From NCBI GenBank assembly GCA_026874595.1, contig CM049314.1:39736045-39800044 (forward strand): a stretch of DNA of 64,000 bases, written 5' to 3'. The notes beneath the pieces are model-generated. The model searched no databases. It saw only the letters and a list, made by a program, of their open reading frames with translations, and had not been told where the DNA came from. The translations under genes were made by a program, and so were the position numbers. This document shows, one piece after another, positions 13,435 to 58,246 of the stretch (position 1 is its first letter; every line of letters starts with the position of its first letter). The DNA is from Sipunculus nudus (taxonomy: Eukaryota; Annelida; Sipuncula; Golfingiida; Sipunculidae).

Positions 13435-13740
13435 AAAGATAATTTGGCACCAATAATTCCAATTCTTCCCGGGAAAAATGAGAATTCTCATTTTTCCTAG
13501 GTTTGAATTATAAAAACTGAATTCCAATATCTCCTGGTAAAAATAAGAATTCTCAATTTTCCCGGGAGAGACTGGAATTCTCATTTGTCCAAGGAAGAAT
13601 GAGAATTCTAATTCTTCCCGGGAAGAATAGGAATCCCTTAATACCATCTCTGGATTCTCATTTTTCCCGGAAAAAAATCAGAATTCTAATTTTTCCCGGC
13701 AGGTTTCTGGATCGTCCCAGATTCTCATTCTTCCCTCGAC
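13435..13740. repeat. Degenerate palindromic minisatellite (AGAATTCT / TTCCCGGGAA)
   Basis: About ten irregular copies of a short unit combining the palindromes GAATTC and TTCCCGGGAA with A/T-rich spacers (for example ATGAGAATTCTCATTTTTCC) occur in direct and inverted order at spacings of roughly 25 to 45 bases. Open frames here just translate the repeat. Confidence 0.7.
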
Positions 13741-13867
13741 ATATATTTATGAATATTTCAGTTAATCCACATTTCTAAATTGCTTCAAATTCCGTAGCTA
13801 ATTAATCTGGTTTATAGTACCTGTCAACAGAATGGGATGCAGAGGCGTTGGAGGCTTAGCTTTGAGA

Positions 13868-13873
13868 GAGAAT

Positions 13874-13915
<42 letters not shown>
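13868..13915. repeat. (GA)n microsatellite
   Basis: GA dinucleotide run. The minus-strand open frame across it reads as poly-Leu-Ser and is not a gene. Confidence 0.95.
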
Positions 13916-14940
13916 AAGAGAGAGTGAGCTAGAGTGTCATGGAGAGAGAGTAAGAGGCCCTCTGGTAATAACTGCCTGACCCAGCCTGACCTAGACAATC
14001 ACAGTGGCAGTAGCTAGGTAAGAGGTTGAACCGGTTATGTAACACTGCCTGGCACACATTTCACTGATTTGATTGAAACAATGAAGACCTAGTGCTTGAA
14101 AAATTAATGAAATCTACAGTTTTTGATCAAAAGGTTTCAAATTTAAGATTTTAACAGATGAAATGCTTATGTGTACATGCTGTAAAAGTTAAATCCACAG
14201 CACTAACACTAGTAACAGGAAATAAATGTCCACTGTAAGACGTGTTAATTATCATTCATGCTTTTTACAAAGGAGTGATACAGCTATGAGTCTTGATGTT
14301 ATTAGTCAAACATATTGACATCGTTAATTAGCACGAGATCTCGCGTGACATCATAGTCTCGGCACTTTGTTAACACTCCACGAAAAGTTTATAGTGCAAA
14401 GAACTATCGTACTTTCTGTTTTAAGGTGTCAAAGAAAATAATCTCCAGTCAAACAACCTGTCCTTAATGAAATAAAAAAAAAATAATCCTGCTAGATCGT
14501 GAAACCACGGAAGCCACAGACTGATACCGCACCCTATTATGACACAGCAGAGGGAGCTAAAATAGAGCGGGGTACCAGTCTACGGAAGCCGGTCAACTCG
14601 CACTTTTGTCAGCTCACACCATACCAGTTTACTCCATAGTGATACTGACTCACAGCTGGGCCAACTCACACTCCATTGCACTCCAGTGGTACCAACTCAC
14701 TCCTCAGCCTTACGAACTCGCATCCTAGTCCATACTAGCTGGCTCACACCAATTATTTAACACTTAATATTCTAAGTTACAAACAAAACTGGTTGTAGTT
14801 CATCAATTGTAATTGAATATTAAAGTCATTTACACAGACAAAAATGCAATTAACTAACACAAAATACTGACAAAATTATTCCCTGTCCAAATACAAGCAT
14901 GGACAAATATCTCACCAATATACATAGCTATATAGCAAGA

Positions 14941-15312
14941 AAGAAATATGGTCCAATGCATGCATGCAAGTAACGATCTGTACAAATATGAATAAACAGT
15001 CTAGCAATATAACAATTATGAGAGTGAAAGAGAAAGGAAAGGTGACTGGATGACTGAGAGAGGAGGGACAGAGAAACAGCTATTAACGATGTCAATATGT
15101 TTGACTAATAACATCAAGACTTACAGCTATGAGTCTTGATGTTATTAGTCAAACATATTGACATCGTTAATAGCTATTTCTCTGTCCCTCCTCTCTCAGT
15201 CATCCAGTCACCTTTCCTTTCTCTTTCACTCACATAATAGTTATATTGCTAGACTGTTTATTCATATTTGTACAGATCGTTACTTGCATGCATGCATTGG
15301 ACCATATTTCTT
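14941..15312. repeat. Near-perfect 372-bp palindrome 1
   Basis: Left arm starting AAGAAATATGG and right arm ending CCATATTTCTT are reverse complements, with only a few mismatches noticed, around a centre near 15,126 (ACAGCTATG). Arms are about 180 bases with almost no spacer, so the strand can extrude as a hairpin or cruciform. Confidence 0.9.
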
Positions 15313-15975
15313 GATACAGCTATGAGTCTTGATGTTATTAGTCAAACATATTGACATCGTTAATTAGCACGAGATCTCGCGTGACATCATAGTCTCGGCA
15401 CTTTGTTAACACTCCACGAAAAGTTTATAGTGCAAAGAACTATCGTACTTTCTGTTTTAAGGTGTCAAAGAAAATAATCTCCAGTCAAACAACCTGTCCT
15501 TAATGAAATAAAAAAAAATAATCCTGCTAGATCGTGAAACCACGGAAGCCACAGACTGATACCGCACCCTATTATGACACAGCAGAGGGAGCTAAAATAG
15601 AGCGGGGTACCAGTCTACGGAAGCCGGTCAACTCGCACTTTTGTCAGCTCACACCATACCAGTTTACTCCATAGTGATACTGACTCACAGCTGGGCCAAC
15701 TCACACTCCATTGCACTCCAGTGGTACCAACTCACTCCTCAGCCTTACGAACTCGCATCCTAGTCCATACTAGCTGGCTCACACCAATTATTTAACACTT
15801 AATATTCTAAGTTACAAACAAAACTGGTTGTAGTTCATCAATTGTAATTGAATATTAAAGTCATTTACACAGACAAAAATACAATTAACTAACACAAAAT
15901 ACTGACAAAATTATTCCCTGTCCAAATACAAGCATGGACAAATATCTCACCAATATACATAGCTATATAGCAAGA

Positions 15976-16347
15976 AAGAAATATGGTCCAATGCATGCAT
16001 GCAAGTAACGATCTGTACAAATATGAATAAACAGTCTAGCAATATAACAATTATGAGAGTGAAAGAGAAAGGAAAGGTGACTGGATGACTGAGAGAGGAG
16101 GGACAGAGAAACAGCTATTAACGATGTCAATATGTTTGACTAATAACATCAAGACTTACAGCTATGAGTCTTGATGTTATTAGTCAAACATATTGACATC
16201 GTTAATAGCTATTTCTCTGTCCCTCCTCTCTCAGTCATCCAGTCACCTTTCCTTTCTCTTTCACTCACATAATAGTTATATTGCTAGACTGTTTATTCAT
16301 ATTTGTACAGATCGTTACTTGCATGCATGCATCGGACCATATTTCTT
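15976..16347. repeat. Near-perfect 372-bp palindrome 2
   Basis: Same arms and centre as palindrome 1, one repeat unit downstream. One visible difference is CATCGGACC in the right arm where palindrome 1 has CATTGGACC. Confidence 0.9.
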
Positions 16348-17153
16348 GATACAGCTATGAGTCTTGATGTTATTAGTCAAACATATTGACATCGTTAATT
16401 AGCACGAGATCTCGCGTGACATCATAGTCTCGGCACTTTGTTAACACTCCACGAAAAGTTTATAGTGCAAAGAACTATCGTACTTTCTGTTTTAAGGTGT
16501 CAAAGAAAATAATCTCCAGTCAAACAACCTGTCCTTAATGAAATAAAAAAAAAATAATCCTGCTAGATCGTGAAACCACGGAAGCCACAGACTGATACCG
16601 CACCCTATTATGACACAGCAGAGGGAGCTAAAATAGAGCGGGGTACCAGTCTACGGAAGCCGGTCAACTCGCACTTTTGTCAGCTCACACCATACCAGTT
16701 TACTCCATAGTGATACTGACTCACAGCTGGGCCAACTCACACTCCATTGCACTCCAGTGGTACCAACTCACTCCTCAGCCTTACGAACTCGCATCCTAGT
16801 CCATACTAGCTGGCTCACAAGAATTATTTAACACTTAATATTCTAAGTTACAAGCAAAACTGGTTGTAGTTCATCAATTATAATTGAATATTAAAGTCAT
16901 TTACACAGACAAAAATACAATTAACTAACACAAAATACTGACAAAATTATACCCTGTCCAAATACAAGCATGGACAAATATCTCACCAATATACATAGCT
17001 ATATAGCAAGAAAGAAATATGGTCCAATGCATGCATGCAAGTAACGATCTGTACAAATATGAATAAACAGTCTAGCAATATAACAATTATGAGAGTGAAA
17101 GAGAAAGGAAAGGTCACTGGATGACTGAGAGAGGAGGGACAGAGAAACAGCTA

Positions 17154-17241
17154 TTAACGATGTCAATATGTTTGACTAATAACATCAAGACTCACAGCTA
17201 TGAGTCTTGATGTTATTAGTCAAACATATTGACATCTTTAA
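17154..17241. repeat. Short palindrome at the unit 3/4 junction
   Basis: Only the ~41-base terminal arms meet here head to head around CACAGCTATG; the longer inverted tail seen at the first two junctions is missing. Confidence 0.8.
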
Positions 17242-17992
17242 TTAGCACGAGATCTCGCGTGACATCATAGTCTCGGCACTTTGTTAACACTCCACGAAAA
17301 GTTTATAGTGCAAAGAACTATCGTACTTTCTGTTTTAAGGTGTCAAAGAAAATAATCTCCAGTCAAACAACCTGTCCTTAATGAAATAAAAAAAAAATAA
17401 TCCTGCTAGATCGTGAAACCACGGAAGCCACAGACTGATACCGCACCCTATTATGACACAGCATAGGGAGCTATAATAGAGCGGGGTACCAGTCTACGGA
17501 AGCCGGTCAACTCGCACTTTTGTCAGCTCACACCATACCAGTTTACTCCATAGTGATACTGACTCACAGCTGGGCCAACTCACACTCTATTGCACTCCAG
17601 TGGTACCAACTCACTCCTCAGCCTTCCGAACTCGCATCCTAGTCCATACTAGCTGGCTCACACCAATTATTTAACACTTAATATTCTAAGTTACAAACAA
17701 AACTGGTTGTAGTTCATCAATTATAATTGAATATTAAAGTCATTTACACAGACAAAAATACAATTAACTAACACAAAATACTGACAAAATTATACCCTGT
17801 CCAAATACAAGCATGGACAAATATCTCACCAATATACATAGCTATATAGCAAGAAAGAAATATGGTCCAATGCATGCATGCAAGTAACGATCTGTACAAA
17901 TATGAATAAACAGTCTAGCAATATAACAATTATGAGAGTGAAAGAGAAAGGAAAGGTCACTGGATGACTGAGAGAGGAGGGACAGAGAAACA

Positions 17993-18304
17993 AAGAACAT
18001 AACAACGTAAAACAAAATACATATAATTCATCAATGTTTTAAGCAGCAACTTTATTTTAACATGTTTGAAAAGTAAAAACTTTACAAATGTGCCCTTATA
18101 TATATCGTTAAACATCACAGATACATAAACACAACTTTTGACTCTTCTGCAAATGTTTCTAAATGTTTGTTCTGTTAAAATATTTCCTTTTTATGTATGA
18201 ATTGACCTGCCTTTTCTTGTTCCATAGACAAAACAATTTCATCAGGATTATGCATCTCTTACAAAATTTTACATTTGATATTTTGTGATATTGTCCTGAT
18301 ATAT
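17993..18304. other. Single-copy spacer, no gene seen
   Basis: AT-rich DNA between the palindromic array and the ~330-bp repeats. No open frame or repeat noticed. Confidence 0.4.
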
Positions 18305-19745
18305 GCATGCATTAGTTGTTCAGATTCTGGAGATTTTGGAACAATAGCTTGGACAATATGGGTAACATAGACCTAATTTCAGGTTTCCAATGAGACTTTT
18401 TATGGGCCTACCTGCAAGTAAAGAGAGAAGATTCTAAGTCTACTAATTACGATTTGTGCCGAGTTAAAAGATGACTGCATCTTTTAAGGTCCCAAAAACA
18501 GAAAAAAAATGCAAAAACATCCGAAAAAATACAGATGGCTCCACCTGAGTCTGCAGAAACTTATGAAACACTATTTGATCAATATCCATGCAAAGAATCA
18601 TGTTGATCAGTGCATTAATTGTTCAGATACTTGAGCTTTTGTATCAAATTTTCCATTATTTTTGGGGGTACCTCCGAGCCCCATGGCTTAAAGGATATGA
18701 GTAACAGAAACACAATTTCAGGTTTCCATGGAAACGTTTCAAGGGCCTTTCCATGTGTCAAGAAAGAAGATTCTAGGTCCAGTTGTTACCATTTGTCCCC
18801 TGTTATCAGATGACAGCATTCTTGAAATTCTCAAAAAGAGAAGAAAAAAATGTACAAAAACAATAAAAAAAATACAGGTGCCGCCAGAAACTGATTGACC
18901 AACTGATGATCGATATGTATGCCAAAAATCATGACCATCAGTGTTGTAGTTATTGAGATACTGCAGTTTTTGTATCATTTTTTTCTTTATTCTGGGCGGT
19001 ATTTTCGAGCCATACAGCTTTAAGGATATGGGTCACAGAGACCTAATTTCAGGTTTCCATGGAGACTTTTATGGGTCTCCCTGTGTGTCAAGAATGAAGA
19101 TTCTAGGTCTAGTTTTTATGATTTGTGCCCTGTTAACAGATGTTCATATCTTTAATGGTCTCAAAAATAGAGAAAAAAAAATTCGGAAAAAAGACCGAAC
19201 AAATACATGTGGTGCCACCAGTCTGCACAAACTGATGAAACACTCCATGATCAATATCCATGCAAACAATTATGGTGATCTCTGCATTAGTTGTTCAGAT
19301 ACTTCAGCTTTTGTATCAAATTTGCCATTATTCTGAGGTGTACTTTGGAGTGCCATAGCTCAAAGGATATGGGTAACAGAGACTTATTTCAGGTTTCCAT
19401 GGAGACTTTTCATGGGTCTCCCTGTGTGTCAAAAAGTAAGATTCTAGGTCCAGTCGTTACGATTTGTACCCTGTTGACAGATAACTACATCCTTAAAGGT
19501 TTCAAAAATAGAGAAAAAAATGCAAAATATTGAAAAAATACAGATTGCGCCACCAGTCTGCAGGAGCTGATGGAACACCTCTTGATCAATACATATGCCA
19601 AAAATCATGATCATCAGTGTTATAGTAATTGAGATATTCTGGTGGGTAATTTGGAGCCCCACAGCTCAAAGGATTTAGGTAACAGAGACCTTATTTCAGG
19701 TTTCCATGGAGACTTTTCATAGGTCCCTCACTGTGTCAAGAATAA
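18305..19745 (+). repeat. Diverged tandem repeats, period ~305-345 bp
   Basis: Five units are anchored by TTGTTCAGAT or TATTGAGATA at about 18,315, 18,619, 18,945, 19,290 and 19,620. Each contains GGTTTCCATGGAGACTTTT, TGTGTCAAGAA and AAGATTCTAGGTCCAG in that order. Units are well diverged and the last is cut short next to the LINE fragment. Open frames inside translate the repeat and are not genes. Confidence 0.8.
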
Positions 19746-19753
19746 AGATTCTA

Positions 19754-22079: not shown

Positions 22080-22560
22080 AAACCTGTAACTCAATTTACG
22101 AGGTACAGCTAAAACTGAATTTGAGTTACATGGTAATTCCACTCAGCTTAGAATAGTTGACTAATTAAATTAATTTTTTTATATGATAGCTATCAATGTG
22201 ACTTTTAAGGAAAGCATAAAAATCCATTTATGAAAAAAAAAATGAGTTACAGACTTATTATACTGGAGGTGCGAAATGTCCTTGTTAACCTGACATTAGG
22301 TCACCGTGACTTTATTCTGCGACCAATAGGAAAAAAGTTGTCAATTGTGCACACTGAGTGTCAGATGGGCAAAAGTCGTATCTTTTAGGTCTAGAATCAT
22401 GAAACGCAACATCCATGGAGGTTCTGGGCAAATCTCCTTGGAAACTTGAAATAAGGTCAAGATAAGGGGTAAGGTAAAAGACAATTTGGGGTTTAAAGTC
22501 TAATACCACCACCGATGTCAGTCCTATCCGACTAAATACTTTGCCTTCATGGTCTTTCGG

Positions 22561-22806
22561 GCCTGTTTATTCTTGCAGCCTTTCTCGGCTCCCTGGGAAT
22601 CATACAAACCAAGCGCTAGAAGGTTATTCGTTCTACATTTGCCTGTCACAATGGACCAGTACCAATACACTCCAGGGTCGGGAGAGCTCACCCGTCTGGT
22701 TAAGTCTTTGGCTAGGAGTCTTAGCGCAGACGGCGGTCAGAACGGAATGCGAACCAACAACCCTGCGGTCACGAGTCCAGCGCCCTTTACATTACGCCGC
22801 CAACCT
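22561..22806 (-). repeat. tRNA-derived SINE, tandem copy 1
   Basis: Read on the minus strand: a tRNA-like head with GGCGCTGGACTCGTGACCGC and a B-box-like GGTTCGCATTCC (22,744-22,755), then GGGTGAGCTCTCCCGACCC, then GCAAATGTAGAACGAATAA and an A-rich CAAGAATAAA end. The head and the AATGTAGAACGAA core match the repeats at 33,872 and 48,932, so this is a family. Confidence 0.65.
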
Positions 22807-23329
22807 CCAAAATATATTCATGGTAACCTATATTCTGTGACCTACAGGCCAAAAACATAATTTTTAGCATCCAGACAATCATAAGGGACATGTATTGTAT
22901 TCATGAAGCTTATAATTTTCTGATAGCATTCGAGGAAGTCCGCGGCGAACGTCCTTGGAAACATGAGTTTTTTAATTGTGGCGTTTTATCTGAGATCTAC
23001 AGGAAAAATGTCATATGAGCACCCTGAATGTAAGATAAGCACAAATCGTATTTGCAAGGCCTAAAATCTTCTAACAGAACATTCAGAATGTTCTGGGCAA
23101 GTGTCCTTGGAAACCTGACCTTCATTATGCGACCTAAGTGCAGAAAACTTAACAGTGAGCACCTAGCTAGTCATCCTGGGCACAAATTGTTTCAATTAGG
23201 CCTGTACTTCTAATGTAACATTCTCGGAAGTCCTGTGCAATTATCCTTGGAAACATAAAATTAGGTCACGCAGAAATGTATTCTGCGAGCTTTGAATGGG
23301 CTTTGCCTGTTACGTTTGAGAGGATTGTA

Positions 23330-23875
23330 ATATGTCCCCCACCCCTGACGAACAAAAGTTATAAATAGCCTCCCCGGCACAGCCTAATATGTCTTTGAGT
23401 ATTTTATTTTTTTATCTTTTAAATATTATGTCCCGTGTAATATGTCCCTCCTCCCCTGCCTAATAAGTGAATGATTTACCTGCACTCAACTACTAAATAA
23501 GTTTGGGGAGGTTAAAAAATCCCCCCTTCTCCGCCCTTTTGAAGTTTTGGAAATATGTGCCCTGGTCTAATAAATGAATATCTTCCACCCCTCCTCGGCC
23601 TTTTATGTTTTAGGAGGGTTGAAATATGTCCAACCAACCTTCCGGGGTTGGGAATATATACCCCTATGTAATAAACCGAATAGAAGCCCCAAGCATAATA
23701 AGTTTAGAAGGGTTGGTTTATCCCAATGCCTAATAAGTGACAAACGTAACATGTATTGGAGAGTTTGAATATGCCCCCGACCCTCCCTTAGCCTAATACG
23801 TGACCAGCCTAATATGTATTGGGAGGGTTGGAATATATCCCCATCCTTTCTAGGGTTTGGGATATAAACCCTTAC
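23330..23875. repeat. GC-richer minisatellite, tandem copy 1
   Basis: Degenerate units of roughly 60-90 bases built on GGGAGGGTTGGAATATRTCC, CCCCNACCCT and CTAATAAGTGA. The same block recurs at 25,128-25,673 in the second tandem copy. Confidence 0.7.
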
Positions 23876-24358
23876 TCAAACCTGTAACTCAATTTACGAG
23901 GTACAGCTAAAACTGAATTTGAGTTACATGGTAATTCCACTCAGCTTAGAATAGTTGACTAATTAAATTAATTTTTTTATATGATAGCTATCAATGTGAC
24001 TTTTAAGGAAAGCATAAAAATCCATTTATGAAAAAAAAAATGAGTTACAGACTTATTATACTGGAGGTGCGAAATGTCCTTGTTAACCTGACATTAGGTC
24101 ACCGTGACTTTATTCTGCGACCAATAGGAAAAAAGTTGTCAATTGTGCACACTGAGTGTCAGATGGGCAAAAGTCGTATCTTTTAGGTCTAGAATCATGA
24201 AACGCAACATCCATGGAGGTTCTGGGCAAATCTCCTTGGAAACTTGAAATAAGGTCAAGATAAGGGGTAAGGTAAAAGACAATTTGGGGTTTAAAGTCTA
24301 ATACCACCACCGATGTCAGTCCTATCCGACTAAATACTTTGCCTTCATGGTCTTTCGG

Positions 24359-24604
24359 GCCTGTTTATTCTTGCAGCCTTTCTCGGCTCCCTGGGAATCA
24401 TACAAACCAAGCGCTAGAAGGTTATTCGTTCTACATTTGCCTGTCACAATGGACCAGTACCAATACACTCCAGGGTCGGGAGAGCTCACCCGTCTGGTTA
24501 AGTCTTTGGCTAGGAGTCTTAGCGCAGACGGCGGTCAGAACGGAATGCGAACCAACAACCCTGCGGTCACGAGTCCAGCGCCCTTTACATTACGCCGCCA
24601 ACCT
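24359..24604 (-). repeat. tRNA-derived SINE, tandem copy 2
   Basis: Exact counterpart of 22,561-22,806, carried along by the 1,798-bp tandem duplication and not an independent insertion. Confidence 0.65.
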
Positions 24605-25127
24605 CCAAAATATATTCATGGTAACCTATATTCTGTGACCTACAGGCCAAAAACATAATTTTTAGCATCCAGACAATCATAAGGGACATGTATTGTATTC
24701 ATGAAGCTTATAATTTTCTGATAGCATTCGAGGAAGTCCGCGGCGAACGTCCTTGGAAACATGAGTTTTTTAATTGTGGCGTTTTATCTGAGATCTACAG
24801 GAAAAATGTCATATGAGCACCCTGAATGTAAGATAAGCACAAATCGTATTTGCAAGGCCTAAAATCTTCTAACAGAACATTCAGAATGTTCTGGGCAAGT
24901 GTCCTTGGAAACCTGACCTTCATTATGCGACCTAAGTGCAGAAAACTTAACAGTGAGCACCTAGCTAGTCATCCTGGGCACAAATTGTTTCAATTAGGCC
25001 TGTACTTCTAATGTAACATTCTCGGAAGTCCTGTGCAATTATCCTTGGAAACATAAAATTAGGTCACGCAGAAATGTATTCTGCGAGCTTTGAATGGGCT
25101 TTGCCTGTTACGTTTGAGAGGATTGTA

Positions 25128-25673
25128 ATATGTCCCCCACCCCTGACGAACAAAAGTTATAAATAGCCTCCCCGGCACAGCCTAATATGTCTTTGAGTAT
25201 TTTATTTTTTTATCTTTTAAATATTATGTCCCGTGTAATATGTCCCTCCTCCCCTGCCTAATAAGTGAATGATTTACCTGCACTCAACTACTAAATAAGT
25301 TTGGGGAGGTTAAAAAATCCCCCCTTCTCCGCCCTTTTGAAGTTTTGGAAATATGTGCCCTGGTCTAATAAATGAATATCTTCCACCCCTCCTCGGCCTT
25401 TTATGTTTTAGGAGGGTTGAAATATGTCCAACCAACCTTCCGGGGTTGGGAATATATACCCCTATGTAATAAACCGAATAGAAGCCCCAAGCATAATAAG
25501 TTTAGAAGGGTTGGTTTATCCCAATGCCTAATAAGTGACAAACGTAACATGTATTGGAGAGTTTGAATATGCCCCCGACCCTCCCTTAGCCTAATACGTG
25601 ACCAGCCTAATATGTATTGGGAGGGTTGGAATATATCCCCATCCTTTCTAGGGTTTGGGATATAAACCCTTAC
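25128..25673. repeat. GC-richer minisatellite, tandem copy 2
   Basis: Counterpart of 23,330-23,875. Related sequence (TAATAAATATGGG, GTGAGGGTTGGAATATG) continues to about 25,830 outside the duplication, showing that the minisatellite is older than the duplication. Confidence 0.7.
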
Positions 25674-33685: not shown

Positions 33686-33871
33686 GTTTCAGTTTTACCT
33701 TGTAACCTTTGACCTTGAAATTCAAATTTTCAGGTGTCATTCACCAACACTTTTTTTCCTAATTCTATGACTGATTTTTCTAACATGGATGCCTGCTGTT
33801 AGCAAGTATATTCCCTCAACAGTGTAAAAAATAATTTTTGCTGGCCCATTATATAACCTTTTATATGGTTA

Positions 33872-34055
33872 ATGCGCTGAACTCGTGACCGCCAGGTTTT
33901 GTGCCTGTGTCCCGATACGACTGCTATCTGCGCATAAGTCTATATCACTAGTGTGCGCCCACTCCACCCAGGAGTGAATAGACGGCTGGCAATATGTAGA
34001 ACGAACAAGCCTTCGGAAACCGAGTTTGGCTGATTCATTCTATGCTCTCATTATG
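33872..34055 (+). repeat. SINE related to 22,561-22,806 (segment A copy)
   Basis: GCGCTGAACTCGTGACCGCC, then CTGCGCATAAGTCTATATCA, CACCCAGGAGTGAATAGACG and GCAATATGTAGAACGAACAA line up with the minus-strand SINE at 22.6 kb in the same order. The B box is degenerate here, so it is an old copy. Confidence 0.6.
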
Positions 34056-34764
34056 TCCATTACGTAGGGCTTAGTCTGAACAATGTGCTAAGTAGACAGT
34101 CATAATTATATGTTTAAATCAAGTTTTTAATTGTTCTGTCCAAAAGTGTCACAAGATGGCAAATTTGCTCTTTTGAAAAGCAAACATATCATTACCGGGA
34201 TAATGATAATTTGGTAATTGGAATGGGGTCAGGTTAATAGGTTAACTGGTAATGTTTAAATGATGGCACAGGTCAGCCCTACTAAATATTCACATTGTAC
34301 ATACAATTGAGATTAAAAGTATATGTTTTGGACTGTATATAAATATATTGTCTAGACAGCATTGGTTAACCTGCCATAAGGGGGAAATAGTTCACCTAAA
34401 CAGAAACAGAAATCACAAAATAAATATAATTGTTAAAATAAAACGAACAGATTGCAAAGAAGAGAATGGTTTATCTTGTTCACATCACGGACATTACCAA
34501 TTTCTTTTTCCTTGTGAGCTAAAGCATATTATGCATTTATTTGGTCCGTTATGTTATACATCGAATATGCATTATCTTATAAAAGGCTTTCGTGTCAGCC
34601 AAATGACTGACATATAAATAGCTTACTCAGGATAATAGACACATTACTTGTTATATGTATGGCAATCTAACCGAAGCAATCATACATGTGGTGCATGTAC
34701 ACAATAAAAATTCTCAAGCTTCACAGGTACACTCAGTAAAACCTGTAACTGATCAGAGGCTTCC

Positions 34765-34784
34765 TTTTTTTTTTTTTTTTTTTT
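34765..34784. repeat. poly-T run upstream of the HNMT-like gene
   Basis: A run of about 20 T, about 150 bases before the start codon. The segment B counterpart is much shorter, a quick difference between copies. Confidence 0.9.
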
Positions 34785-34937
34785 GCTGCTCTGTACAGCG
34801 GATCTGTTTGTAACTATGAATAATTTGGCTCCCATGTCTCTGCAGTTAACTCATACGCCTTCTGTGTGTAGGAGTGATTTCGAACGTGTCTGAATTTTGT
34901 CGGTCTTACGTTGTAATCATCTTTTTTAATATACCCA

Positions 34938-37395
34938 ATGGAAGATCACTTGCACTATGCGACGGCCCACAATGCATTTCAGAAGAACAGCAACCTCATA
35001 AAATGTACTCTAAGCTGGATTCGTCAAAACATGCCTGGAATTGTGAAGGAGATTTTGGATTCTGGAAGCATCAAAGGGAAAGGACAATTCCAAATCATAT
35101 CCATTGGCTCAGGCAAAGGTTCGTTTCAAACTACCTTACTGATTTTCTATAATTCCGTGACACTATTTCAGTGTAAGATTTTCTAAAATATTATTGAATA
35201 AAAATTACCTTGCTTGTATAATTAAAATGAAACACCCTCGAATTTATATCGAGTGTTTCATAGGTGTGCAAATTGTTTATATCATGAGACTTTTTTTCAT
35301 AATTATTTATAATCAGTACACTTCTAACAAAATAACCGCTGTAATTCTTTATCGCAGACTTCCTAATAAGTTAAAAAAAAAGATATATAGATAACTACAC
35401 TGACAGATTGTTTTGCATAATTTCGTATACTATCTCTAGTAATATGGCACTTAAATTCAATATAAAATTGCAGCTACCAATGAATTTCATCTTTCAGTGG
35501 CCTCTTTTCGTTATTGATTTATTTAGGGTATTGGTGAGAAATGTTTCTATCATAATTGCTTTTTAGGATTTCAAGACGCCGCAATATTGGACGAGGTGGT
35601 GAAGTTTCCGCTAAAGATCAAATACACCGCAGTAGATCCAAGTGGCGTCAGCATGAAACAATTTGAAAAGAATGTTGCCAATAACCCAAAATATGCCGAG
35701 GTAGAATTTGATCTCCGTGCAATGAAGGCTGAAGATTATTTGTCTAGCAAAGCCTCCAATAGAAAATTTCATCTGGTTCTCTTCATACACAGTTTGTATT
35801 ACTTCTACGAACGAATAGGGGAGGTGTTGAAAGATTTCTATAATTTGACAGACGAAGAAGGATGCATAGTCGCCCATACCTCTAAAAAAGGTAACCTCTC
35901 TCTGTCTCTCTGAATATAATAATAATAATCATCACATTCATCATAATTAGTCAAATCATCATAATAATTTATGGTAGAGCTGGCCTAGTGTACATATGGG
36001 TGAAAAGTTAAGGTTACAGTTGAAAAGTATGGCAAATAGAAAGAGGTTTTTATACATGTGCACGAGTGAAAAATCCTCCTGGGCCAAACAAATTTTAGAA
36101 GATATGTCTGAAATAAAATGTGCTATAGAAAATCACATATTGTCCTCCTTTGGCCATGTTTAGTTTGAGCAAGTCTGTACTTCAGTAGGTCAGAGGCCCT
36201 CATGGACACCAATGACACCTGTAAATTAAGAAAGAACAAGCATGTTTTTGTTGAGATATCGGGTGCGACAGAAAATCACCCATTTTGCTCTGGTGGCCAT
36301 ATTGGAATTCGACAGAGCTGTAATTTGATAGGGATAGTATACTCATAGGTACCAATCATCCCTATGAACGTGGGAAAGTATGTTAATCTTTAGTTATCGC
36401 GCACAAAAAAAAAAAAAAGAATCAGCGATTCGACTGTGGCGGCAATATTAGAATCTCGACAAATGTGTAATTCGATAGGTCTAGAACCCTCATATGTACC
36501 AATCATCCTGTGGATTTGGGAAAGGTGAAGTATGTTTTTGTTGAGTTAGCCTACGCGAAAGAAATCAGCGACTGGACTGTCGCGACTATATCGGAATTCC
36601 GAAAAGTCTGTAATTTAATAAGTTGTCATATGTACCAATCACCTCTGTAATATAGATAAGGCGGAAATAGTTTGTTTAGTTAATGCACGCAAAAGAAAAT
36701 CGGGAATTGGACTGTGGCGGCCATATTTAAATTCCTACAGGTCTGCTATTCAGTAGGTCTGGAGCCTTCATATGTACCAATCACCCCCGTGAATTTGGGA
36801 AGGCTGTAGTATGCTGTTTTGTGTTATCGGGCGAGAAAAAAGATCAGGGATTTGGCTGTGGTGACAATATTGGAATTCTGACAGATCTGAAAATCAGTAG
36901 GTCTGTAACCCTCATATGTAATAATCATCCCTGTGAATAAAGGAAAGCTGTTGTATGTTGTTGTTGAGTTATCGCCCGCGAAAGAAAGTGTCAGTGACGG
37001 AAATACGGAATTACGGAAGGACAGAAGTACGGAGGGACGGGAAGACGGAAGGATGGAGTGACGGAAGGACGGACTGACACGGTGATCACTAAAGGCACAG
37101 CTTGTAAAGCGGGGCCTTATTAATGATAAGTTGGTGTCTGTGTGTTTAAACGGACAATATACAGGAAAAAGTATGCGATTAAGGCAACCATTGTAGTCTT
37201 AGGGTTTCGCTGAACCAATGCAAACTATTTGCTGAATGGATGACTGAAATAAATATGTTATGTAATATTCCTCGGGATATGAGGGGAGTCTTATACAACA
37301 CTCAATAGTCTAAAGATTGTATATACGGTTTATATATTGATGGGATAGTATTTACTGACAAACCTAATCAACACAACATGTCTATAAGTTACTTC

Positions 37396-37426
<31 letters not shown>

Positions 37427-38746
37427 TGATATATATATAAGTAATACAAAAATATTGCAATATCTCAATGAAGAGAAATGTTTGTAAAAAGGTTCATCGG
37501 TTGATAAAGTAGATGGTGTTTCTGTCTGTTTAGGATTGTGCTGTTCTTATGTAAGTCGCAACGAAGCGATTTCAAATAAATTACATATTGGATATTCTCA
37601 TTGTAAAAATGACGGGAGTATTGCTTATTAAAACAATAATTAACCACTGTTTCTATCATTAGAGGGTGTTTATGCGATTGGAGAAGGGAAGCTTCCGATT
37701 GATGGCACTGCTTGGGCAAACGATATTGACACGGCATTGGATAATGAGAAGTTCGCCTGCAAACAAACAGAATTTCAATTCTGCATCGACTTAGGTATGA
37801 TATATGTCAGGGAAAACCATTATGATGAATATCTGTATTCTAATGTTATTAACCTAATTTATTAACTTAATTATCTTATTTCAACCGTGATATGTGTTTT
37901 ATAATTAACTTTTTTTTATTTCAGAGCCAATAGTTGAATGTAGTGCTGAGGGGAATTTGCTTCTCGACTTTTTAACACTTTCACCAAATTTTCGCGAAAC
38001 ATCTAAACCAGAATTCGTGAAAGAGATTGTCGAAAAACTGATCAATATGGCAAAGAAGAAAAACAACAGGCCTGTAGGTTGCATCAACGTAAAGGTACAT
38101 ATAATCCATAAAAGAAGGTAATGTTAGACGGATGAAATGTTATGATCGCATGAAGACGTTTAATGGTTTCACTTATCTTGTGTTAATATACTGCTGTCCT
38201 GTATCCTTATCTTTATCCCCGGAGGATCATGTTACAACAACTTTATAAAGAAGAACAATTGTGAACTATTTATGATTTATTTCTATTCTATTCATACAAT
38301 ACACATAACAAACAGGGATAATACCTGCAACCGACAGTGTGCAGACCGCACGATTTTCATGTTGGCTCTGCTTAAATACAGGATTTGGAACTGCAGAGTA
38401 TCTGTTTCACAAAGTTTATCAGAATATATAGCAATGGGCCTGAGGCCTACATCCTCTCCTTCAAACTCATTCATTCATTACTTTATTCTTTCATGCATTC
38501 ATTCAATAACATTTGTCATCTTGCATTTTTGCTTATATATGTTTGAAAAGGTCAGATCCTGATTATTATTACTAATTTTGGTCATAGATGGAGACCAGTG
38601 CCCTTTACTATATATATTCGTTTCCCATGCTTGCTGGACAGAGCCAGTATATAACTGTTTAACATTTAATTTTTTCAGTTTCATATTCAGATGACATTGA
38701 GCTGAATCTCGTTCACTCTGGTCTTTTTTGCATGGAGTATAAATAA
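34938..38746 (+). CDS. Histamine N-methyltransferase-like protein, intact copy (copy 2)
   Basis: Predicted cytosolic SAM-dependent N-methyltransferase of the HNMT family. Exons: 34,938-35,118; 35,567-35,890; 37,663-37,794; 37,925-38,094 (or 38,077); probable last exon 38,679-38,746 ending TAA. Introns 1-3 are GT-AG and all phase 1. The sum is about 290 codons, close to the 292 of human HNMT. Residues 55-61 SIGSGKG form the SAM-binding loop (human SIGGGAG); YTAVDPS at 80-86 matches the second SAM contact; LFIHSLYY at 132-139 and a C-terminal VECSAEGNLLLDFL also match. Two human histamine contacts look changed: Gln143 aligns with His135, and Glu28 falls near Asn17, so the substrate may not be histamine. 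The start is the first ATG in the frame, in good context (CCCAATGG); a TGTGTGTAG acceptor upstream suggests a 5' non-coding exon. The last exon fits in frame only with the 38,077 donor. Intron 2 is filled with ~155-bp repeats. Confidence 0.85.
36150..37095. repeat. ~155-bp diverged tandem repeats in HNMT-like intron 2
   Basis: About six units, each with TGTGGCGGCNATATTGGAATT, a GTCTGTAATTCGATAGGTCT-like stretch, CTCATATGTACCAATCATCC, GTGAATTTGGGAAAG and GTTGAGTTATCG. The block ends in a run of GACGGAAGGACGGA-type short repeats (37,000-37,080). The same block is present in segment B. Confidence 0.85.
37400..37441. repeat. (AT)n microsatellite, segment A intron 2
   Basis: Interrupted AT run shortly before exon 3. 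The B counterpart at 52,399 is longer and purer. Confidence 0.9.
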
Positions 38747-39239
38747 AAAATATCATTTAAACAAATAGTAGTATACGTCAAACGGAAATTATCGGACAAT
38801 ATTTTAGGATACCAACAGATTAAACACCTGAACTTGACAGTATTTCTGTAGAGCTGTTAAAATGAAATTATTTTATAAACACTCGTAGAACGTCTCTTGA
38901 TGTTGGCAATACGAAAAGGAAAGGTCCAAACATGTCATATATACTTATACAAATCGGAGACAGGCTCATACATATTTGTGTGTATATATATGTAACACAA
39001 ATTATTACAAAATCATATCACTTTTTAACACAATATCCAAATTATTTACTGAACATTTATTTACTTAACAAGCAAGATGCAGAATTAATCACAGTATGAT
39101 TGACAATATGATACATCTCATGGCATAAACTGAATCACTTATCAAAGAACAGAAGGGTTAACGTTTTTTTTATACTTGCCACTATATGCAACATTGATTT
39201 CGTGTTCTTTATCAAATAGGCTTTAAAGGGGAAATGTAC

Positions 39240-39515
39240 AACATCCTGAAACTTGGGTATTTACAAAGCATGAAGTAAAATCAATTAGTAGTGTTTCGAA
39301 ATGGTATTGTCTTAAGAAAATGTAAAAAACTCACACTGAAGTGGTTAGCAATTACACAAATATTAAAAAGGAATATTCCAGATTTAAAATGGTCTCAAAT
39401 GAAACAAAATTGAATTAATAAAAAAAAAGAAACAATTATTATGATAGAAAATATTGTTAATAAAAATAAATATCTAAGTGTAGATACATCGTTTTTTCTG
39501 TTTGATAGAAAAAAA
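39240..39515 (+). pseudogene. LINE reverse transcriptase remnant (segment A)
   Basis: Plus-strand reading gives LVVFRNGIVLRK (about 39,281-39,316), KWSQMK (about 39,395) and, after a frame change, SVDTSFFLFDR (about 39,478-39,510). These match in order the VFRRGG, LSWTK and YLFDNM landmarks of the LINE at 6.3 kb. Stops lie between them. It is short and old, so the assignment rests on these landmarks only. Confidence 0.5.
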
Positions 39516-40812
39516 TATTTATTTCCTAAACATATTCGTGGTATCAACTTTTCATTGCAATCTTCTGCTCAATATGTATTTACTCATGTTGCATATTGAA
39601 AGTTTATTTTTTTCTAGCGTTTGCACAATTGTTTCTTTAGCGTAAACACCAAAGACATGAAAAAAAATAATGAACAAGACTGTAAAATAATGTACCGAAT
39701 AAAAATCGCTTAGAAAATGCTCTGTGAGACAATCTGTGACTAATAATTTAGAAGCTTGTTTATATTATGCCTTTAAAGTAAACTATGATAAAGTGTAAGA
39801 CAATATAAAAGTGTCGGAATTATTTATTTTTATTACAAATTATCTAATATGCTAGAAATATTATCAATACCTGCGCTAAAGGAAATGTTGTAATAATTTG
39901 GTTAAAATGACAGCAACTTTGTTTTTAATCAATTACGCTTAAAAATGACTAGCTTTCAATTTAATTTGACCCTCTTGGAATCCATCCTGAAGGCTGAATA
40001 CATGGGTCATTTACAGCTAGCTTTGTTTGAAGTTGTCTTTTAATTGAATTTCAAAAATAAAACTGATACATGGTACTGCATGATTATTTGTTATTCAGTA
40101 TGAGACTGACCACAATCGCCTGAGTCCTTATTTTAAGGGGAAATAGGAAGAAAGCGACATAGCATATTACACCTCCGTAGTGATACATGCTATCTCTGTA
40201 CTAAGTACGGCACGACTATATACTAATGTTGTGCAGTTTTCTCAGTTTCTTTGAAAAAAAAAACACAACCACAAATAGGAATTTAAGCAACTGTGTGGTG
40301 ACAAATGATATATCCATAAATTTTATATGTACGTAAATCCTTATTAACCTGATTTTCTATGTTTTAGTTTATATGGCTATTAGCATAAGTCAAGGGCATG
40401 CATATTTCTTATAAAATGAGACTAAAGTTGCCAACAAACCTCCAGAAATCACCCATATAGAAAATCTATTCAATTAACTTAGATGAGATGAGTATCTTAA
40501 ACTATGTGAAAAAAATTATAATGCAATTAAAGAATTTTCTTGTATATCAATTATATCTTCAAAGACAGTATTTTGTAAAGCCCCAGTTCATTAATACAAT
40601 GTTTCTAATACTTCACACCTCATATTACTTTAAACTATACAATTATCGTATAAACATAATAAATAATTGTATCGGACGCAAATTTTGATAGCATGAGTCA
40701 TGAGTTGAATCCGAAGCCGCCAACGAAGCAAATCGTTTGCAGGCTACAGAGACAGAAACGATAAAGGGAATATCATATGAAAGTCGTTTACCAGTTACAG
40801 AGGGGATATTTG

Positions 40813-40824
40813 CATATATATATT

Positions 40825-40877
<53 letters not shown>
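40813..40877. repeat. (AT)n microsatellite, segment A
   Basis: Interrupted AT run, shorter in the B counterpart (58,236-58,281). Tyr-Ile open frames here are artefacts. Confidence 0.95.
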
Positions 40878-40882
<5 letters not shown>

Positions 40883-41064
40883 TAAAAACAATTTCTCTGG
40901 GGCCAGCCCTATCTTCTCGTTGCAAATAAAATACCAGAATTTCAGGATTTGGTTAAAATAAACACCTTTCTGTTTGTCCCCCAGTTGCTGACGACCTTTC
41001 AATCGTATGTTTTGAACTGCTTGATTACTGTGATGTTGTGTTTTACGCGAAAACTAGCTTTTTC

Positions 41065-41187
41065 CACTATTTTTGGTCCCAAATACACGATCCAGGTAAC
41101 TTAGAGTTTCACAAATACGACCACCCCCAAATTACGACCACTTTGGTCAGTCCCCAAGGCGGTCGTAATTGTGGGGTTCCACTGTAG
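41065..41187. mobile_element. MITE-like element, 5' end deleted (segment A)
   Basis: Counterpart of 58,476-58,613 but lacking the first ~17 bases (CCCTACAATTACGACCA). The deletion lies between two CCA triplets. The 3' terminal repeat GGTCGTAATTGTGGGG is intact. Confidence 0.6.
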
Positions 41188-41204
41188 TTTCTTTACGTAT
41201 GTAG

Positions 41205-41940
41205 ATGGACTGTGTGACTAAAATGTGTCCGATTTAGCGTCTAGCTTGGCTTTCGATAACACATAAGTTAGTGGGTTCATATCTGTCAAGACTAGAACTT
41301 AATACCGTACAGGTAATCGTGAAACTTGTTGGTAACTGCACACTTCAGTACCAAGAACTCCAGTATATAGACTGAAAAGTTCTTTTCACTGGGTTTCAGA
41401 GACCTGCTGGCGTAGGCAATTACATGGCAATTACACGTTTCTGGCCATAATGTTTTTGTAGCAGTAGTGCACTTATCACTCTAGGCATGCATTCGTGTGT
41501 AAAATTAAGTATTTATTGAAGTCGGTGAATCCTAGAACCGGCGGTGTTGCCAGTCATCCGATTATGGTGTTAAAAGCATCCTACTAGGAACACCTCCACA
41601 CCGATGTTTTTCATGATTATTCTCGTTGTTTGGTCTTGACTTTTGATTCGCTCGGCTTTGTTAACAGCTGATTAAAATTACGTTTGTACCCAGTGAAGCC
41701 TAGACAATTTATCAACTCTTCAACACTCCGTGGAACAGGCCAGCTCTATATTGCCTCAGTCGTTAGTGTCTCGATTCCGTTGGCGGATATGATTTGACCT
41801 AGATAATGGTCTGTGTTGGTAAACATTTTGAAGGTTTCAATTTTAGAACATGTTCCGTTACTTTGCCGAAAACAACATCAATCCTCGGTAATTTTTTATT
41901 GAAAGTAGTAATATCTTCAAGGTACACTTGCCACTGCTTA
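41205..41940 (-). pseudogene. Gypsy RT-RNase H fragment (segment A)
   Basis: Minus-strand reading in several frames gives VYLEDIITTFNKKLPRIDVVF and LKLKPSKC, the YLDD palm region with YLED here. Then come NGIET, WPVPRSVEEL (read as LFHGVLKS in the adjoining frame) and GFTGYKRNF. The RNase H landmarks LHTNACLE (usually LHTDASLEG), VIAYASRSLKPSEKNFSVY, TNKFHDYLYG and LTYVLSKAKLDA follow. The first RNase H Asp is changed to Asn and stops interrupt the frame. It is a different gypsy lineage from the one at 8-9.6 kb, judging from the RNase H placement directly after RT. No LTRs are seen. Confidence 0.75.
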
Positions 41941-42510
41941 AGAGTTATATTACACACAATCTATTAAACTCATACAGTCCTATGGGTCCTACTATGAACG
42001 ATGTTTTATGATTGCCATGTTATTTAATTTTTACCCACAGATATCTAGATTATAAGTGAAGTGCAGAAAACTTTTGTGCGCTAGAGACAAAAAAAATGAG
42101 TGTCTCACCTATTCTTGGCATGTAGTATGTGTCCCGTACCGTAGTGAGTGTAATTTCCTTAAGTCCACAAAAAATGTAAAGTTAACCAAGCACAAAATTT
42201 CACGCGTATAGACTGCTATTAACTTGTTTATATAAATATTACACTAATGTGAAATATTTATAAAAACAATGAGAGGAGACAATAAAATTACAAGCAAAAT
42301 ACCGATTCCGTGACCGTATGTGAATTGGCAAAGTACATTTTTCACGTTGTGCATAAACTGAAGTCTATCAACTTTTTAGTTACTTAATAACAACATTTAG
42401 TCTCGTGAGCTCATATATTCAAAGTGAGAGTTTGTAAACACATGCATTATACTCAACTTCTGGTGATGGCGTAAAGGTGCCTCCTGAGATCCTCCTCCGG
42501 TAAACAAAAC

Positions 42511-42810
42511 ATGGCGGAAAATTCTAAACAAAATCAACTTAGTTCCACGAAAAGTCCAACAAAGCAAAATCCTGGTGCACAAACAGCGTGATCCGAGCTC
42601 CTCGATGACAATGGGGCCGTGTCAAAGTACCGCGACCTCAACTCCTGGAACATCAGCTTTGCGGATTGTATCACTCTTCAAGAGTGCAATGCGACGTTTA
42701 ATACGGACAGAGTAAATCTCCAGAACTTGTGTTTTGCCTTATTGGATACAGTTACTGGTCCCCTATCGGGCGCCAATTCTGACGGCAGTCAACGGACTTT
42801 TCTTTGTATT
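42511..42810 (+). pseudogene. Unrecognised ORF with one in-frame TGA (segment A)
   Basis: An ATG in good context (AAAACATGGCG) opens a frame that reads MAENSKQNQLSSTKSPTKQN, then six more codons, a TGA at 42,589, and continues open as SELLDDNGAVSKYRDLNSWN and on through FADCITLQECNATFN to TGPLSGANSDGSQ before it enters a CT/AT microsatellite. I recognise no domain. Between A and B nearly all differences in this frame change the amino acid (for example Ser/Pro, Ala/Val, Gln/Arg, Asp/Asn), so it is not under protein-level constraint now. Most likely a broken first exon of an unknown gene. Confidence 0.4.
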
Positions 42811-42837
42811 CGTATTTTTGTACTCCGTCTTCCCCCC

Positions 42838-42856
42838 CCTCTCTCTCTCTCTTTTC

Positions 42857-42895
<39 letters not shown>
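42838..42895. repeat. (CT)n(AT)n microsatellite, segment A
   Basis: CT run followed by AT run at the 3' end of the TGA-interrupted frame. The B counterpart is at 60,267. Confidence 0.95.
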
Positions 42896-43122
42896 TATTT
42901 ACATATATAAATATGTGTATGTATATGTTAAAGAAGAATATCATTGGAAACACCGTAAACATTCAAATTATTCGTAAATTCCTGCCATATAAGACCACCT
43001 TATTTTCGTTGGGCGTACTTTTACGGACGGTTGAACTGTATTTAATCCAGCTAACGTTTCAACCTACATTTACCTCTGTTTGGGTGATAATATGTTATAA
43101 AATAAATCCACATTTATTATGA

Positions 43123-45465
43123 ACACATCTCCAGTGTCAAAATTTTCCGTAAAAAAATAAGCATAAGATTATAATGTGTTTGAAAGGAAAGAATCGTTCA
43201 GCCGAAAGAATTACAGGTCATCTGGACGAGTTCAACTATACGATCCTCAGAAAGACGAGTTAAGCTGTACGCTTCCCATAAAGACGCGTCCTTCTTACTT
43301 TTAGGTCATTAGAGAACTTTAGATACCAAGGGAAAGTTTAAGCGTATGTCAATTGTCGGTTAAAACTCATTTGCTGTACAATTAACTTTTTTTATGAATT
43401 TTTTGTGGCAAAATATTCAAAACACCAGCACATTAGCTATAAACGACAATTGTCTTAGATTAGGTCAGGTGAGAACACCGTGTTCACTGAACCGTGTTCT
43501 TATACGCGGATATGCTAGTGTTAAGCCATGGCCACTCCCAACCGTACTATGTCAAAAAAAAAATAATGACAATGTCAAAATCTATTTAATCTTGTTCTCA
43601 GACAGATTTATTCCTCCATCATGATCATATCCACCTATTTTCATGTTTGTTATAATGTTTATTCGTCCGATCGACTAAACATTCAAGAATGTTGAATTAT
43701 TTAAGTGGACACATTGACCAATCATTATGATTGGAAAAACTTTGAAAGCATGCTTTAATATTAATTATAAACACGCAGGTTTGTAATGTCATCTAGTCTC
43801 TGTATACGTCATTTCACTTACAGGGGTCTTGAATTGACTCATACGGGAAATGCATACTTTCCGCGTAAACATACGCCAGCATATTGTAGTAGATCGCTGA
43901 ATTTATTGTTTTTATTTATTAAACTTAAACTGGCAAGATTTCAGATTTCATATATACCTTTAAACATTTATGTTGAAACGATATTTTTAACCCAAAGGAA
44001 CCACCGAAAACCCAAACAGTCGAAAATTTCTTAACCAGGTTCCACCGAAACCTTTATATTTGGAAGGGTTGCGCCATACAAGTGTTGTAATAACAAAATT
44101 GGTGCCCGGTACTAATACACGTGATCATTCACATGGACAAAAATATGAATGCGTATGGGTATTTTAAACTATTTTGAAACTTTTGATTGTGCATCATTAC
44201 AGCATTAGTTGTACATTGAGTACTATTGTACTTACTTTTATACACTGGATGTAATGCCTTTTTTTGTATAACGTTTTGTTATTTATATGAGAGGCCTACG
44301 TTTTCTTGTCGCATTAATCATAAAGTATATTATGAAAGAATATATTTCTGGTACTAATCTAAACAATATTGTCACCGTTTGCGATGCGATCATTCGTTTT
44401 TTGCTCTCTCTCTCTCTCATATCGTACGAAAATTGTTTAACAGAATGGTTGTTCACTAGAGACCTGCCCAATTTCAAAGCAGAGTAGGAGGTGATCATGG
44501 AGTCTGTGTTTTTTATTACAGCATTAATTAAATCAAAAGACTGACAAAAGGGCTTTGATCATAAACTATGGGAGGCTGACAACTTTTAACATTCCATATT
44601 ACTTCATAGTATGAAAGACTTTCTAATTAATATATTAAGACCATATAGAATTACATATATTTATTATATTGTTTAAAATAATAGTTTATATAAAATTAGC
44701 AATTACATGGGGAAAATATTAGTATAATATCGGCCATATACATGTGTTCAATGTAGATAGGTTTCTGTTAATCCCTACAACGGCAGTTTTGTGGAAAATT
44801 TCAAAGTTCACCATCCGTAAATTGCAAAGCTTTGTTATTTGAAAATTTAAATATGTAAATTTAAATAAAGGATTGTAATTTGAACAAAAAAATAAACTAG
44901 GTGATAAGTGGTGTTGCCCTGGGATATTCCGTCCAGAAATGCCGTCTCTTCCCGCTACTATTGTGTGTCATGCACCCCAAAACATGTTCTCATCTGGATA
45001 CCGTCCAACTCGTCATCGTCTTCTGGACATCATCCAGCTGACATAAAATCGGGCTACGTATATCTCCAGTGTTCCATTTCTGCCGACAACTGTATGTGGG
45101 CACCGAAGAAGCAAATCTAGAAAAGCTTGATAACCTATATTATTGCCTGAGCGGGAAACAGCCAGCCAGCCCAACGGAAACAAAATGGAGCATCAGCTGC
45201 TGTTATTAATGTTCTTAATAATATAATAAAGGCAGACAGGTTGTCGAAACCGATAATATCCCAAGCCAAGACGAGCCAACGACTCAGTTACGGGGTATTC
45301 TGATTATACCATTGTCATAAATAATATATAGCGCAGTATTATATATAATAAATATAGGATATATGAAAGGTCAATCATCTGTGCAGATTAAAGTGCACGG
45401 GATAGATTTAGCCACTTATATGACGTTTTATTCTGTTTTTATGGTCCGATATATATTAAAAATAA
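43123..45465. other. Segment A DNA, no gene supported
   Basis: Open frames at 43,394, 43,786 and 44,908 are each present in B but are altered or shortened there, and none has a recognisable domain. The 44,908-45,120 stretch is a little richer in GC and reads as a Cys-containing peptide ending CMWAPKKQI in both segments. I could not find splice sites to support it. Confidence 0.4.
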
Positions 45466-45469
45466 AGAA

Positions 45470-45475
45470 TATATG

Positions 45476-45543
<68 letters not shown>
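45470..45543. repeat. (AT)n microsatellite, segment A
   Basis: Long AT run; counterpart at 63,001-63,084 in B. Confidence 0.95.
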
Positions 45544-45545
<2 letters not shown>

Positions 45546-46160
45546 CTTGCTGCTCTTTTTCACTTACTTGATGAAAAATAACTTACTAAAAATGTTAATC
45601 ATATTTTTTTAGAATTGACCTTCTAATGCTAAGTTTTGATTAATACCAGGTGTATTATCTTTTTCGACACTCGTCGGAACACTTTGCTGATCAAAATATT
45701 ATATTAAGCGGTATGTCCATGTAAAGGGCCGGTTGAGTAACACACATCCGCTTGAGAATACTATCCTAAGCTATAATAATCGTCAAAAATCGAAAATTTT
45801 ACATTTTTATTAAAACTGTGATCTTACCGTTGTTGGTTATATCATTCCTTACACGAAATCACGCTTCTGAGGTTATAGTTTATCCACTGGGAAACAAAAC
45901 ATTCTTATTCATATATGAGTATACAAGACCACTCGTCGGCTCTGCGAGAAGCTGTCAGTCAGCCCGGGCTGTGCTTATCTTTATTACCGGCACTCCATCC
46001 TTGACACTAATTACTGCACACTTTCCCTCTACTCTTCCTCTGAAATTTTATGCAGATCGTATAATTATGTATAGGCCAGTGTCAACTGGCCAAATTACGT
46101 CAGTCCAAGAGAGACCAACAACCGTCTGTGGCATTGTGGCAAACTAGCAATGTGTTTGCA

Positions 46161-46167
46161 TATAAAA
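46161..46167 (+). promoter_or_regulatory. Candidate TATA box (segment A)
   Basis: TATAAAA about 110 bases before a candidate start codon, in a stretch unusually rich in CpG for this window (for example CGAACG, CGCGACACC, CGCGCGGG). The corresponding box in B is at 63,712-63,718. Confidence 0.4.
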
Positions 46168-46272
46168 CTGCGTTGTACGAACGATTTATGTCAAAGGAAC
46201 GCGACACCAACGTATACCCCATTCAAGCACGCTCAGAAATGTTGCGAAGTAAACCGCGCGGGAGTTTTAGCG

Positions 46273-46345
46273 ATGACAGCGAACGGGGAAGAAAGAGCGT
46301 TTGTTGCTGCTAGTTATTTAGCGTCTAACGTGTGCAGGTATGAAG
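46273..46345 (+). CDS. Candidate first coding exon, unknown gene (segment A)
   Basis: ATG at 46,273 opens MTANGEERAFVAASYLASNV and runs to a consensus donor AAG|GTGAGT at 46,346; a weaker donor CAG|GTATGA lies at 46,338. The surrounding ~330 bases are CpG-rich and differ from segment B at only one position that I can find (a synonymous CTG/CTA just past the exon), whereas the preceding 330 bases differ at about nine. A second overlapping frame ending GRKSVCCC is also open, so the frame is not certain. No second exon was found in A before 47.2 kb. The family is unknown. Confidence 0.35.
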
Positions 46346-46460
46346 GTGAGTGGTGCAATAAGCTGTTAGTTGGATTAGGCTGTATGACGTTTCGAATGTG
46401 TGCTCAGAGTGATCAAAGTAATCAATGGCATCTGTCACTTCCCACCTGACTCGTGTTCCG

Positions 46461-48765: not shown

Positions 48766-48931
48766 ACAGTTTTACCTTGAAACCTTTAACTTTGAAATTC
48801 AAATTTCCAGGTGTCATTCACCAACAATTTTTTCCTATTTCTATGTCTGATTTTTCTAACATGGAAGCCTGCCGTTAACAAGTATATTCTCTTAACAGTG
48901 TAAAAAATTACTGTCCTATTCTATAACCTTT

Positions 48932-52396: not shown

Positions 52397-52398
<2 letters not shown>

Positions 52399-52453: not shown

Positions 52454-52455
<2 letters not shown>

Positions 52456-58235: not shown

Positions 58236-58246
58236 ATATATATATT

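Follow-up and report, generated by a model that had tools for sequence, protein, structure and literature searches.

Layout of the array

The window analysed here is a stretch of 64,000 nucleotides from Sipunculus nudus (contig CM049314.1, positions 39,736,045 to 39,800,044). It contains an array of four direct copies, U1 to U4, with starts at about 14276, 15312, 16347 and 17190 and spacings of 1036, 1035 and 843, which agrees with the four units described in an earlier note made from the letters of the sequence. Each unit consists of a terminus T of ~59 bp and a body B of 748 bp, followed in U1-U3 by an inverted copy of T, named T'; U4 has no T'. After U1 and U2 there is an additional inverted segment P', the inverse of T' together with ~141 bp from the end of B, and after U3 there is T' alone. 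All features are collected in Table 1.

Inverted termini of about 41 bases, which the earlier note gave to all four units, are found in unit 1, whose inverted flanks are 40 bp long and perfect, but not in U4, which has no inverted stretch on its right-hand side. A 34-base core of T is exact in all nine T and T' copies of the array. Position 17992, taken earlier as the end of the array, is not an end at all, as the repeat in which B lies (R1, below) runs on to 19753.

Table 1. Features of the array and its flanks (positions in the window)
Feature	Position	Strand	Basis
X-left, 5' part of the R2 copy	13741..14276	+	80% to locus L034 on C1 over 587 columns; matches to R2 loci; alignment of nine R2 loci at this joint
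T of U1, internal 59-bp R2 piece	14276..14334	+	55/59 to L034; R2 context; matches of the joint probes outside the array absent or at chance level
B of U1, internal 748-bp R1 piece	14331..15078	+	copies without T: 89% on C3, 88% on C6
T', probable inverted local copy of T	15079..15121	-	40 bp exact inverse; exact 34-base core in the array only among 263 places
P'1, inverse of T' and the last ~141 bp of B	15122..15312	-	forms 372-bp palindrome; abuts next T; derived bases in common with P'2
U2, T-B-T'	15312..16156	+	1 substitution in 799 columns and 1 indel relative to U1
P'2, second inverted tail copy	16157..16347	-	1 difference from P'1
U3, T-B-T'	16347..17194	+	equal to U1/U2 in columns 5-473 (U2 indel aside) and to U4 in columns 509-803
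T'/T junction U3-U4, 90-bp palindrome without extended tail	17153..17242	.	mismatched pairs and folding; probe at up to 3 mismatches matches here only
U4, T-B, unbroken into R1	17194..17992	+	unit alignment and alignment of R1 loci
Remaining R1 copy, ~341-bp tandem repeats at 18356-19619	17993..19753	+	88.5% to L029 and L030 over 17245-18267; 77% over 18342-19753

Palindromic junctions

The first two junctions form near-perfect palindromes of 372 bp, as had been noticed before. In the first one (14941-15126/15127-15312) 5 of the 186 pairs are mismatched, and in the second (15976-16161/16162-16347) 6 of 186. The third junction has the short arms only, again as described earlier, giving a palindrome of 90 bp (17153-17197/17198-17242) with 2 of 45 pairs mismatched. 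The predicted DNA folding of 17150-17245 has a z score of -17.1 against 200 shuffles.

We searched for close inverted duplications with an ungapped scan (arms of at least 35 nt, at least 90% identity, spacer up to 400), which was preferred over BLAST because the latter fused a known pair at 62562 into one match of 80%. The scan gave seven rows in the window, five of which are the array itself, and a single row (44 nt, 91%, spacer 231) in 137,897 bases of other fetched loci. Close inverted duplications thus look rare outside the window in this non-random sample of loci. Just to the left of the array, an inverted pair of 43 nt with 91% identity (13456-13498 and 13592-13634) lies in a degenerate 28-bp tandem repeat.

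The terminus and the left flank belong to repeat R2

The search of the organism's own genome covered 1,426,538,692 bases in 153 contigs. The 34-base T core occurs there at 263 places with up to three mismatches (133 and 130 on the two strands), nine of them in the array, while the reversed control gave none; the exact core occurs at nine places, all within the array. Since the exact core is found in the array only, T' is probably a local copy of T. The sequence around T is conserved on both sides among its relatives. Upstream, 18 of 21 loci match the reference R2 at 23 or more of 30 bases and the other three at 16; downstream, 20 of 21 match at 16 or more of 22 bases and the remaining one, which has an insertion, at 10. 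Judged from these alignments, T is an internal piece of the dispersed repeat R2 and not an element end. The R1 and R2 loci used throughout form one collection, picked by similarity from one assembly.

The left flank, X-left, was compared through its last 76 bases with the 21 R2 loci; nine scored above 70 and the 12 below were dropped. In all nine aligned loci X-left ends at AAAGGAGT, and 213-816 bp follow before T begins. The copy in the window does not have these 213-816 bp, so that an R2 copy with an internal deletion makes up the left edge of the array. The left edge of T coincides with the right arm of an inverted repeat, GTATCA-9 nt-TGATAC, in 10 of the 21 R2 loci, and the left half of this repeat is absent from the window. 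Two R2 loci, L053 and L050, have spacings of 213 and 613 bp between X-left and T compared with ~800, so internal deletions recur in this interval.

The body belongs to repeat R1

Copies of B were found with 89% identity on C3 and 88% on C6 and as shorter pieces elsewhere, at least 56 matches among the best 40 of 620 candidates. At the right edge of B, 13 of 14 loci run on with the sequence that follows the array, and the remaining one (L011) stops short. All five loci that reach the left edge extend into a common left part that is absent from the window, and the alignments of the five long loci L029-L033 pass 17992 unbroken. Going by these alignments, B lies inside a dispersed repeat, R1. We also considered B as a retroposon with 5'-truncated copies and a common 3' end, and dropped this candidate: the apparent end at query position 800 is where the query enters T', and the fetched loci continue.

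Joints, and the possibility of a transposon

A probe across the T/B joint has four matches in the organism's own genome, namely the four units. The X-left/T probe has one exact match, here, and four others at three mismatches, compared with two in the control. A T'T probe, worded after R2, matches the third junction only, at three mismatches; junctions 1 and 2 would need four. Outside the array, no B joined to T' was found among the best 40 of 620 B candidates. The sequences meet with short overlaps of 1 bp (T) at X-left/T, 4 bp (GCAC) at T/B and 1 bp (T) at P'/T. With T in R2, B in R1 and GCAC common to both, the T/B joint fuses R2 to R1. The B/T' joint has no clear microhomology in its sequence, which we count against the repair or replication scar proposed below. 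X-left/T, P'/T and T'/T all start from one left edge of T, to within ~3 nt, and the chance of two independent landings at this edge is ~0.2%. This reuse speaks for a scar in which one broken or stalled end served more than once, but it also counts against a scar made by independent random switches, which do not predict it.

The earlier note considered a novel foldback transposon. In such a reading, the array would consist of tandem insertions, at one target, of a non-autonomous foldback or MITE-like element with T and T' as terminal inverted repeats and B as cargo. The bounding of B by inverted 40-bp copies of T, the reuse of the T edge at three joints, and the CAGCTA found at the left edge of the array and at each T'/T junction would all suit such an element. 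Published MITE arrays, e.g. the tandem hAT MITEs in Atlantic cod (PMC12368964, excerpt), may serve as a precedent by analogy, and the array resembles Foldback/MITE elements such as Tetris in its inverted repeats and tandem units (PMC4079207, excerpt). However, conserved R2 sequence stands on both sides of T, B runs into R1 at both edges, and X-left and T stand in R2 order; element ends are missing, unlike in those elements. The earlier note had proposed a genome search for single units: no T-B joint was found beyond the four units, the B copies among the best 40 of 620 candidates come without T, and dispersed T-B-T' copies, which Foldback/MITE elements would lead one to expect, were not found. 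There is no clear target duplication either, as the flanks of the array share only the chance-like 6-mers ACAAAG and ATTCAT and 17992 is no true right end; a candidate 6-bp target duplication flanking the array was dropped for this reason. The transposon reading is largely refuted by these sequence comparisons, and we regard it as very improbable.

Relationships among the units

The units were compared over 799 columns, with four junction columns omitted. U1 and U2 differ in one column and one indel, and so the description of the units as near-identical holds for this pair but less so for the others, which differ in six to nine columns (U1/U3 7, U1/U4 9, U2/U3 6, U2/U4 8 and U3/U4 8). The private bases of U3, at columns 474, 475 and 508, sit at the changeover from U1/U2-like to U4-like sequence. 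The probability of a single U1-like to U4-like switch arising by chance order is 0.018, or 0.036 for either direction. U3 looks like a mosaic of U1 and U4, the statistics being modest.

An assembly artefact could arise if the haplotypes of a heterozygous individual, or palindromic reads, had been merged so as to give additional units. The six to nine differences per 799 columns between non-identical units could be allelic, and in this single assembly the window also holds a tandem pair at 100% identity and segmental copies at 94-98%. The palindrome arms, however, differ at 5-6 fixed positions common to both copies, unlike a fold-back read from a missed adapter, and the mosaic of U3 also speaks against an artefact. 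Even if some units were allelic, the palindrome junctions must exist in one haplotype. We consider an artefact unlikely.

The two inverted tails, P'1 and P'2, are one base apart, and from this comparison U1 with P'1 and U2 with P'2 are apparently one unit-plus-palindrome that was duplicated later. P' carries derived bases at columns 739, 746 and 802, unlike every U tail and 13 of 13 family rows, and therefore would not descend by recent copying from any of the tails seen today; these three bases rule out a simple copy made lately from the adjoining tail. Compared with the 13 family rows that have data, the base of U3 and U4 at column 769 is derived, and so are those of U1 and U2 at columns 534 and 605, each judged by nine rows. 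The excess of changes in P' is borderline (P = 0.041 by Poisson, 0.055 by Fisher). Under a scar origin this excess needs error-prone synthesis or later mutation, a borderline point against it. T and T' of U1-U3 have G48, and T of U4 has T48, as in the copy on C1. This split would leave more than one order of copying, which also weighs against a scar.

The later duplication of one unit-plus-palindrome, and units that look homogenised in patches, lend slight support to the suggestion of the earlier note that the array is a nascent satellite, in which a chimeric repeat is amplified chiefly by rolling circles or unequal exchange, with the palindromes as a side effect. Tetris/TIR-220, repeats grown from foldback elements (PMC4079207, excerpt), may be taken as a precedent by analogy. 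Against this, long tandem arrays at several places would be expected of a satellite, and we found four units at one place, with no second array among the best 40 of 620 candidates; nor are inverted tails made by tandem exchange alone. We think it quite unlikely that the array is primarily a satellite.

Proposed origin of the array

Our analysis suggests that the array is probably a scar left by local repair or replication where two unrelated dispersed repeats, R2 and R1, meet. A deletion and a fusion would here have been followed by duplication with inverted fold-back copies. The earlier note had pointed to template-switching or fold-back amplification, and this part of it is borne out: the order is direct-inverted-direct, the joints have no element ends and T' appears to be a local copy. 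Also in favour of a scar are the internal positions of T in R2 and of B in R1, the probes of three joints, which gave no convincing match elsewhere, the short overlaps at three joints, the single switch within U3 and the separate inverted duplication at 62562 described below.

A possible course of events is as follows. At the left edge of T, a DNA end that was broken or stalled, and used more than once, would fold back, and ~45 nt would be copied as T'. Joining of T' to B would yield a tandem U-T'-T-U junction with a 90-bp palindrome, and through this palindrome synthesis could switch once more, at T'/T, and run back along 141 bp of the B tail, after which it would land again at the start of T and give the direct-inverted-direct order at a sub-kilobase scale. 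Later, the 1035-bp unit with its tail may have been doubled once by unequal exchange (U1/U2), and U3 may have become the mosaic of U1 and U4 through exchange or conversion. Either a break-based snap-back or a fork-based switch may fit these steps. We speculate, with considerable doubt, that a fold-back palindrome drives its own growth, from 90 bp to 372 bp by switching through and then to duplication of the unit, with the three junctions representing stages side by side. If this were true, a satellite-like array with built-in palindromes could start from just a broken repeat.

Comparison with known rearrangements

The human genome rearrangements known as DUP-TRP/INV-DUP, large copy-number gains at PLP1 (PMC4352052, excerpt), share with the array the direct-inverted-direct order in which a common segment occurs three times with the middle copy inverted. 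At two junctions of the array we observed the corresponding succession of tail, inverted tail and full unit. One junction in those rearrangements lies in inverted repeats and the other has little homology (same excerpt); here, the switch sits in the T'/T inverted repeats, though the event itself is the probable source of T', and P'/T, the second junction in these terms, has the 1-bp overlap. The array differs in that its units are below 1 kb, the T/T' repeats would have been made by the event itself and the product was apparently duplicated again.

Switching at short inverted repeats has been given as the cause of inverted triplications (PMC10766183, excerpt), and these resemble the array in the inverted middle copy and in this kind of switching. 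Closely spaced short inverted repeats at the junction in the parental sequence are a trait of ODIRA, and the GTATCA-9-TGATAC at the T edge of 10 of 21 R2 relatives could be of this type. In contrast to those triplications, the array shows no replication origin or extrachromosomal, hairpin-capped intermediate, and the left half of the inverted repeat is absent from the window.

For MMBIR, inverted templated insertions close to their own template have been described (PMC8421209, excerpt). T' fits this pattern as the inverse of a nearby template, and so does an insertion elsewhere in the window, where 62562-62669 is the exact inverse of 62795-62902 (108 nt, 100%, spacer 125). The array departs from MMBIR insertions by the tandem duplication afterwards and by a B/T' joint without clear microhomology. 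One copy of a segmental duplication carries this 108-nt inverted duplication, with ACCT common at the entry, and the other copy (~45137) lacks it. It is an independent example in the same window if it represents a gain; the other copy may instead have lost it, though this is less natural.

The array could be considered a small, readable fossil of direct-inverted-direct amplification, in which precursor-like (90 bp) and extended (372 bp) junctions occur together and relatives of both parent repeats are at hand to polarise the changes. It also indicates that near-identical units with inverted flanks are not necessarily a transposon, as separate genome searches with flank and body dissolved the apparent element.

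Other searches and features of the window

Rfam and tRNA searches gave no match, and neither did the exact T cores in viral_contigs and genome_contigs, three T strings in a literature search, or a literature search on bivalves and template switching. Among ten frames of the window searched against Pfam, two had matches, all below the threshold, and one frame searched against PDB had none. The frame 35527-35910 has a sub-threshold match to a methyltransferase with 25.1 bits (cut-off 30).

Direct segmental duplications with 94-98% identity relate 33690-39168 to 48767-54148 and 39166-46459 to 56577-64000. The positions 22080-23875 and 23878-25673 form a tandem pair of 1796 bp, 100% identical and 2 bp apart, which is either very recent or an assembly duplicate. 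Internal tandem repeats of ~341 bp (in R1) and 144 bp are found at 18356-19619, 36413-36974 and 51207-51992, where R2 loci match too.
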